A model generated the notes under the pieces. The model saw only the letters and a program-made list of their open reading frames with translations. It was not told where the DNA came from and searched no databases. DNA of 64,000 nucleotides from contig NZ_LT629779.1 in assembly GCF_900105535.1 (NCBI RefSeq), forward strand, positions 3,224,001-3,288,000, read 5' to 3'. Positions within the stretch are counted from its first letter, which is position 1. Each line of letters opens with the position of its first letter. A program made the translations under genes and the position numbers. This DNA comes from Pseudarthrobacter equi. GTDB lineage: Bacteria; Actinomycetota; Actinomycetes; Actinomycetales; Micrococcaceae. Positions 31,797 through 47,662 of the stretch are shown here, in pieces.

Positions 31797-32067
31797 GCGT
31801 AAAGACTCGATTCCGTGGTCAGCTGTAGTCATCGCGACATTTCCAACCGAAACGCACGACAGATCAGGCCCATAACACAGGGCTCCTTCAACAAGTCTAA
31901 CCGCAGTGGCAAGTGATGGCCTAAAACCGGTCAGGAACCGGCGTGAATCCTGCCCTCCGCCGGTCCCCCGCAGGACGGAATTTGAGAGCAGTCACACTCA
32001 CTGGATAAATACGGATTTATGCCCCATTATTGCTGTTGATGAGCAGCGAATACCATGAGAAACCAGC

Positions 32068-32982
32068 ATGCGTCCCGCATCCGCTTTAACGCGGATCGCG
32101 GTATTTGCTATTGCCGCCGGCATCGTCCTGGCGGCCCCGGGCCAACCGGCACAATTTCCGGCGTCGGATGCACCGGCAGCCTCGGCCAGCCCGGACCAGG
32201 TTCCGCCTTCCCTGCTCAGGGCCGCTGCGACGGATCCGGCGGATGCGCCCCGATACACGCCGGGCGCCGACCTGTCCGAGGTCCTCTCCCGCCCCGCCAT
32301 GCGCCCAGGGGAGGTCTTCCGGAACCCGGTCTTTGGCCGGAACGAAGTAGTGGTGCCGAACGTACGGAACACCGCTGTCCTGATCGGCGACTCCCAGTCG
32401 GTTCCGGACGACAGCTGGCCCCGCCGCGCCTTGGTTTCCCTTGGCTACAACGTCCACTTCTGCGGTTATGGCGGTACGGGCTTCACGGCAGCCAACGGCA
32501 AGGTGGGCAACTACATTGACGCCCTGGAGCGGGGCGACTGGATGCTGCCGGTGGGAACTCCCGGACTGGTGGTGATTGAAGGCGGCGGCAACGATGCTGC
32601 CCGCGGCGCCTCGGATGCCCAGATCACCGCCAACGCCAACCGCCTTGTCCAGGCCATGAAAGCCCGCTACCCCACTACCAAGATGGTCATGGTGGGCACC
32701 CTCGCGAAGGGCGCCAACAACGGTGGCGGCCGCCGGAGCCAAGTGGACAACCTGCTCTCGAGCATCGCAGCCAAGCAGGGCATAACGTTTGTCAGCGCGG
32801 GAGACTGGCTGACCAAGTACAACCTGGTACAGCACCTTGCGGACCCCGTCCACATGGACAGCGAAGGCCGGAAGGCGCTGGGGACGGTGCTGGAACGCCG
32901 CCTCCGGGAACTGGGAATTCCGGACATCACGGCCACTGCCGCGGCCACCGCCCAGGCCGGAGCCGGCAGCAAGAAGGGCTGA
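32068..32982 (+). CDS. Secreted SGNH/GDSL-type hydrolase
   Basis: This 304-residue exported esterase or lipase-like protein has an N-terminal signal (ALTRIAVFAIAAGIVLAAPG) and a Pro/Ala-rich linker. SGNH block I is VLIGDSQSVPDD near residue 110, with the catalytic Ser. Block II is around YGGTGFTAANG, block III is VIEGGGNDAARG, and block V is ADPVHMDSEGR with the Asp-His pair. All four catalytic blocks are intact. The substrate may be acylated wall polysaccharide or lipid. Expression is isolated between typA and the peptide transporter; the end overlaps a hairpin at 32974-33017. Confidence 0.88.
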   Translation: MRPASALTRIAVFAIAAGIVLAAPGQPAQFPASDAPAASASPDQVPPSLLRAAATDPADAPRYTPGADLSEVLSRPAMRPGEVFRNPVFGRNEVVVPNVRNTAVLIGDSQSVPDDSWPRRALVSLGYNVHFCGYGGTGFTAANGKVGNYIDALERGDWMLPVGTPGLVVIEGGGNDAARGASDAQITANANRLVQAMKARYPTTKMVMVGTLAKGANNGGGRRSQVDNLLSSIAAKQGITFVSAGDWLTKYNLVQHLADPVHMDSEGRKALGTVLERRLRELGIPDITATAAATAQAGAGSKKG

Positions 32983-46583: not shown

Positions 46584-47662
46584 TCAGTCGCGCGGCCGGC
46601 GTCCGCCGAGGGCGCGGCTGACGTCGCCGGCCTCCTTCAGGGTGGCGCGGAGTTCCTTGGGCAGCGAGAACAGGAGGTCTTCCTCGGCGGTGACCACTTC
46701 TTCCACGCTTCCGTAGCCGTATTCAGCGAGCAGTCGGAGCACATCCTGGACCAGCACCTCGGGAACGGAGGCCCCCGAGGTCACGCCGACGGTCGCTACG
46801 CCTTCAAACCATGCTTCGTCCACCTGGTTGGCGAAGTCCACGCGGTAGGACGCCTTGGCGCCGTATTCCAGGGCCACTTCCACAAGCCGCACGGAGTTCG
46901 AGGAGTTTGCGGACCCCACCACGATCACCAGGTCCGCCTGGGGCGAAATCTTCTTGATGGCCACCTGCCGGTTGGTGGTGGCGTAGCAGATGTCGTCGCT
47001 GGGCGGGTCCTGCAGGGTGGGAAACCGCGCCTTCAGCAGCCGGACCGTTTCCATGGTTTCGTCGACGCTGAGGGTGGTCTGTGAAAGCCAAATGACCTTT
47101 TCCGGGTCACGGACGGTGACCTTGTCCACCTCGTGGGGGCCGTTGATGATCTGGATGTGGTCGGGCGCTTCACCTGCTGTTCCTTCCACTTCCTCGTGGC
47201 CGTCGTGGCCGATCAGGAGGATGTCGAAATCGTCCTTGGCGAACCGGACGGCTTCCTTGTGCACCTTCGTCACCAGGGGGCAGGTGGCGTCGATGGTGCG
47301 CAGTCCGCGCTGCCCGGCAGACTCGACGACGGCAGGTGACACTCCGTGCGCGGAGAAGATGACCAGGGCACCTTCGGGAACCTCGTCCGTCTCGTCAACG
47401 AACACAGCACCCTTCTCTTCGAGGGAGCTGACCACATGGACGTTGTGGACGATCTGCTTGCGGACGTACACCGGGGGGCCGTAGTGCTCCAGTGCCTTTT
47501 CGACCGCGATCACGGCCCGGTCCACTCCCGCGCAGTAGCCGCGGGGGCCGCGAGCAGCACCTTTTTGGCCCCGGTGACGGGCGCTGCAGCTGCTACTTCC
47601 TCGGGCGAGCGGCGCCTACGCGGGACGGTTGGCATCGAGAGGGAAACAGCTGTGGAGGTCAT
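46584..47662 (-). CDS. ispH: 4-hydroxy-3-methylbut-2-enyl diphosphate reductase, reading frame broken by an apparent 1-base deletion
   Basis: IspH performs the last step of the MEP isoprenoid pathway. From 47525 to 46584 the frame is intact ([62 protein letters not shown]), carrying two of the three cluster cysteines region by region. The expected start is ATG 47662 ([12 protein letters not shown]), leading to KKVLLAAP. There the frame slips: the gene reads GGCCCCCGCGG, and one extra C would give the universal [11 protein letters not shown]. The first 4Fe-4S cysteine, in GYC, lies in the slipped segment. Restored, the protein would have 359 residues. Sequencing error, mutation or frameshifting are all possible. 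The gene begins nine bases after an upstream membrane-protein gene. Confidence 0.88.
47543..47547 (-). other. Frameshift site in ispH (five-base C tract, six expected)
   Basis: On the coding strand this is a CCCCC run inside the conserved AAPRGYC block. Adding one C joins the upstream frame (KVLLAAP) to the downstream frame ([10 protein letters not shown]) without any other change. Confidence 0.85.

Follow-up and report, generated by a model that had tools for sequence, protein, structure and literature searches.

How does Pseudarthrobacter equi make IspH if the ispH gene in its genome sequence cannot be read in one frame? The window, the whole stretch of 64,000 nucleotides that was analyzed, carries ispH on its minus strand, and ORF translation placed the gene in two frames (window positions throughout). 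The frame opened by ATG 47662 encoded the IspH N-terminus as far as KKVLLAAP, went out of phase at the tract 47543-47547, and stopped at 47510-47512. Translation and comparison with relatives defined this 5' piece (47510-47662, minus strand) as a 50-codon ORF, the first 40 codons of which are IspH N-terminus and the last ten residues of which are off-frame. From GYCAGVDRA onward, the protein continued in the neighboring frame for 318 codons and then met a stop at 46584. The main ispH ORF (46584-47525, minus strand; ORF list and profile search), 313 residues long with a GTG start, is the sole start-to-stop protein of this downstream frame. It contains the second and third cluster cysteines and lacks the first, the TGC codon of which (47532-47534, minus strand; located from the sequence and a structure alignment) lies 5' of GTG 47525, the only start in its frame. 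Between this GTG and the preceding in-frame stop, the codon list contained no ATG, GTG, or TTG and no CTG, ATT, ATC, or ATA either. Thus, an alternative start retaining the first cysteine was rejected for this open stretch, and a protein with that cysteine cannot be obtained from an ordinary start. Both frames matched a single 359-residue ORF of the nearest relative, with 100% identity for residues 1-40 and 99.7% for residues 40-359, so that chance is not at issue. The sequence-only reading had described a frame break before the first Fe-S cysteine and had warned that an automatic start at GTG 47525 would yield a protein devoid of it; coordinates and frames were as it had given them, and the 313-residue ORF is that protein.

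PF02401 matched 322 residues of the downstream frame (E 6.5e-91; 304.7 bits against a cut-off of 24.5), and the profile search of the whole genome scored ispH at 305.3 bits. The downstream frame also aligned with the solved chains 3urk, 3ke8, and 3f7t, which we take to be E. coli IspH, at about E 5e-95 and with all three cysteine blocks. Three cluster cysteines within one protein were nevertheless not found, since the second and third are part of the 313-residue ORF and the first is encoded upstream of its start. All three would be united only by a slip of the ribosome, or if the base was dropped from the record in error. The three conserved cysteines hold the [4Fe-4S] cluster of IspH according to the available part of PMC8837944; a literature search for IspH cysteines by residue number returned nothing relevant.

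The nearest named locus was that of Arthrobacter sp. Leaf137 (99% identity), from the Arthrobacter/Pseudarthrobacter group. Genome G119 has an identical locus sequence and was taken as Leaf137. Against G119, the 39 upstream codons showed one nucleotide difference, which was synonymous, and no residue change, and the downstream piece showed 37 differences, 36 of them at third positions, with 1 of 318 residues changed. Constraint is complete on both sides of the junction and has acted on the gene until now, which makes it very unlikely that ispH was lost long ago without rescue and leaves an error, a lesion of very recent date, or one that is rescued. The junction block was in frame at 79 of 80 named loci and at all 29 other loci, the two sets overlapping. 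The genus search gave a match in 119 of 121 genomes, and besides P. equi, 116 of 120 carried ispH as a single open frame of 359 codons or more; G110 and G118 gave no match, and the gene was split in G030 and G052. The latter are one-contig genomes with a contamination value of 6, in which the two-frame split lies elsewhere in the gene (G030:C1:2551764-2552701 and G052:C1:3945865-3946799); both are probably indel-rich assemblies. A junction one base short was encountered in 2 of 206 genus genomes, P. equi and G153. The match in G153 sits at the place corresponding to the locus of Arthrobacter sp. Hiyo8, and G153 was taken as that strain. A looser junction pattern was found in 1 of the 395 family genomes drawn, namely P. 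equi, Hiyo8 being outside the draw. The comparison of close relatives proposed on the basis of the letters therefore had a clear outcome: ispH is in frame there, the nearest relatives included.

The tract at 47543-47547 is C5 on the minus strand (G5 on the plus strand), and comparison of this sequence with relatives left the frame one base short at this point. The Pro-Arg codons read CCC CGA in G119 and CCG CGC in G038 and G054, with more variety in other relatives. One base is thus absent near 47543-47547; because these codons differ among close relatives, the comparison does not fix its identity, and the loss need not be a homopolymer contraction. The five bases counted by the sequence-only reading are indeed there, whereas six Cs cannot be taken as the universal block that it assumed, given the variation of the codons in relatives.

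Database homologues contained a second type of N-terminus. PRGYC was present in 118 of the best 120 of 7,976 homologues. The proteins P0093 and P0101 (316 residues), also among these best 120, open with MDRAVV at the site that corresponds to GTG 47525 and are devoid of the first cysteine. They are 99.4-99.7% identical to P0106, a protein of 362 residues assigned by name to Acaricomes phytoseiuli, and the full length of P0101 is matched without a difference by a gene of G280 that is in frame through the cysteine. A truncated form of IspH, arising from either a frame break or a start miscall, thus recurs in databases, a point against an artefact in P. equi.

We further considered whether ispH is dispensable. 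The P. equi genome consists of one contig of 4,459,078 bases, is 99.98% complete, and gave one ispH in the profile search. No second copy was detected in the genome by the PF02401 search, which answers the suggestion that one might lie elsewhere and excludes it as a rescue. The ispG gene is intact. HMG-CoA reductase, the sole mevalonate enzyme searched for, was not found in the genome, and a mevalonate bypass was therefore rejected. Within the family, a search with P0101 showed ispH to be absent from 13 of 149 genomes (G207, G221, G226, G230, G253, G257, G276, G284, G295, G311, G319, G325, and G339), and PF02401 found none in those 13 either. They fall into five genera, of which genus g3 includes both ispH-bearing and ispH-less members; the loci L220-L223 belong to four of them. 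HMG-CoA reductase was present in all 13, with a partial match only in G276, and in none of 30 tested ispH-bearing family genomes from 26 genera. Judged by the presence of these two genes, the mevalonate route seems to have taken the place of the MEP route on more than one occasion in the family. The loss of ispH there accompanies a mevalonate route that is apparently missing from the P. equi genome. As ispH is lost only from genomes that have the mevalonate route, and as HMG-CoA reductase is absent here, the loss of ispH in P. equi should be lethal. The gene, also called lytB, is reported to be essential in Synechocystis and E. coli in the portion of PMC8837944 at hand. The statement made from the sequence that actinobacteria of this group have no known mevalonate route thus agrees with the P. 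equi genome, judged by HMG-CoA reductase, and does not extend to the family. A genus member, G110 (96% complete, 70 contigs), gave neither ispH nor HMG-CoA reductase, probably owing to an assembly gap.

The quality of the P. equi assembly was evaluated by searching for further split genes. Using matches of at least 90% identity, two-frame splits were seen in 2 of 259 ORFs against G119 and in 2 of 217 against G054, a total of 4 splits in 476 gene-like ORFs over 864 kb, among which ispH was the only genuine break. The other candidates were discarded: one lay upstream of a nucleotidyltransferase domain, just before the ATG taken as the true start; one was a 174-residue ORF over a tRNA-Trp gene; and one was a 727-residue ORF without Pfam match, antisense to a 635-residue ORF that looks like acetolactate synthase. 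The reverse comparison gave 3 of 276 in G119 and 3 of 210 in G054 as raw filter output. A looser first filter had given 34 uncompensated gaps in 316 ORFs here, against 41 in 320 in G119 among the matches listed; many of these gaps were located at ORF ends, and the filter was therefore replaced by stricter ones. A second filter gave 15 of 359 here and 18 of 354 in G119. In the window, an ORF at 32068 (region 31876-32982) seemed to be truncated by 54 codons relative to G119, but its ATG follows an in-frame stop, and the extended version in G119 probably reflects a false start.

Homopolymers were compared as well. All 20 C/G runs of six with flanks common to G119 had equal length in G119; in the reverse direction, 20 of 21 were equal here, and one differed by a substitution. 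The ispH tract is outside this count, since its flank differs. The density of runs of six was 11.0 per 100 kb in P. equi and 12.7 in G119. Among the 308 runs of five Cs or Gs in G119 whose flanks recur in P. equi, 300 had the same length here and 3 were one base shorter, and the reverse comparison also yielded 300 of 308 and 3. Run lengths and densities were thus like those of G119, and a general loss of homopolymer bases was not seen. The assembly is otherwise clean, which counts against reading the break as an artefact. An error, if that is the cause, must have occurred in isolation, for which a sample of this size leaves room. Indel errors that fragment genes have been described for long-read assemblies, as far as the available text of PMC12007338 goes; a literature search on frameshifts in complete genomes yielded nothing relevant.

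The sole exception among the named loci was that of Arthrobacter sp. Hiyo8 (AP014719.1), which contains the same GCGGCCCCCGCGG junction. Its ispH frame is equally broken, and an alternative N-terminus was not present. A homologue with the five-base tract and an N-terminus keeping the cysteine had been named from the sequence as the case that would speak against a missing base; Hiyo8 provides the tract without such an N-terminus. The accessible part of PMC4712596 gives PacBio RS II reads at 42x coverage and 7,041 CDS for this strain, a number that its authors called exceptionally large and that, they suggest, may reflect additional adaptive genes. Compared with G051, 9 of 34 Hiyo8 ORFs were split between frames (8 of 23 at an identity of at least 90%), whereas the reverse comparison gave 0 of 41. 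Because the Hiyo8 assembly is error-ridden, with many frame breaks, its junction is not support for a real lesion. The unusually high CDS number of Hiyo8 (loci L047 and L168-L171) probably reflects gene fragmentation.

Could the base be truly missing and the ribosome compensate for it? A Pro-tRNA would have to slip by -1 on CCC within C5, after which CGC GGC TAC TGC would be decoded and normal IspH formed. The frame relation, as read from the sequence, suits a slip within C5, and the clean remainder of the assembly, the full conservation of both gene halves, and the start of P0093 and P0101 at the residue of GTG 47525 would be consistent with it. The site, however, is not conserved, occurring in 2 of 206 genomes of the genus (the other being Hiyo8) and in 1 of 395 of the family, and ispH of the nearest relatives reads through in one frame. 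Programmed -1 frameshifting takes place at slippery heptamers of the form X XXY YYZ. The codons GCC CCC do not form such a heptamer, and re-pairing one base back would be open to the CCC codon only. Moreover, the RNA of 47470-47540, folded without pseudoknots, was no stabler than its shuffles (z 0.64), 144 of the 200 shuffled sequences being as stable or more so. Nothing relevant on ispH and programmed frameshifting was found in the literature as judged by title and abstract, and none was found on recoding in Arthrobacter. Rescue by frameshifting, raised as a possibility by the sequence-only reading, therefore gained no support from conservation, heptamer, or RNA fold, and we consider such a slip very improbable. 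It is highly improbable that the out-of-frame ispH is real and that the strain lives on -1 slippage at C5, the last step of the one isoprenoid pathway that it has being supplied, and perhaps tuned, by recoding. Were slippage true, the Hiyo8 junction, P0093, and P0101 would represent further cases instead of coincidences arising from error and gene calling.

The colony that was sequenced, or part of the culture, might also truly lack the base, as a result of a very recent lesion or a mixed population. One isolated break without further decay fits this idea. Without a mevalonate route, however, cells should not survive a clonal loss, the gene being essential in other bacteria according to what is available of PMC8837944, and lesion-bearing cells should consequently not dominate the consensus; we regard a recent lesion as highly doubtful. 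Least credible, and close to negligible, is the idea that the working enzyme is the truncated IspH starting at GTG 47525, from which both the first cysteine and the first strand are missing. Its ORF is long and open and matches PF02401, and two database proteins, P0093 and P0101, begin at the same residue. Against it stand the binding of the cluster by three conserved cysteines, as stated in the available part of PMC8837944, and the alignment of the solved chains through the first of them. By eye, GTG 47525 is not preceded by a well-spaced ribosome site, the 39 codons 5' of the tract are still conserved, and the copy identical to P0101 in G280 is in frame with the cysteine.

We conclude, with a probability of about 0.83, that the ispH break is an isolated sequencing or assembly error and that the living strain has an intact gene. 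One base would have been dropped from the record at the GC-rich C tract just 5' of the first cluster cysteine, and that base would still be present in the cell. This verdict follows from essentiality and the intact relatives and not from poor assembly quality. Sequencing error had already been judged the most likely cause from the letters, and the single ispH, the lack of HMG-CoA reductase in the genome, and the intact relatives all agree with that judgment. The case calls for caution, as a single lost base is enough to give an essential enzyme a truncated appearance in a genome that is otherwise clean and complete. If the base were truly absent, P. equi would offer a rare instance of an essential Fe-S enzyme dependent on ribosomal recoding.

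Compared with known systems, the downstream frame resembles IspH/LytB (PF02401) in matching both the profile and the solved chains; it differs in that the 40 codons of the N-terminus occupy a different frame and that no single ORF holds all three cysteines. Hiyo8 has the same junction and the same frame break as P. equi, but in an assembly with many broken frames (9 of 34 ORFs), whereas the P. equi assembly is otherwise clean. A single-base break in a conserved essential gene at a GC-rich tract is likewise reminiscent of the indel-fragmented long-read assemblies treated in the available text of PMC12007338, in which, however, breaks are many, whereas P. equi has one genuine break among 476 ORFs.
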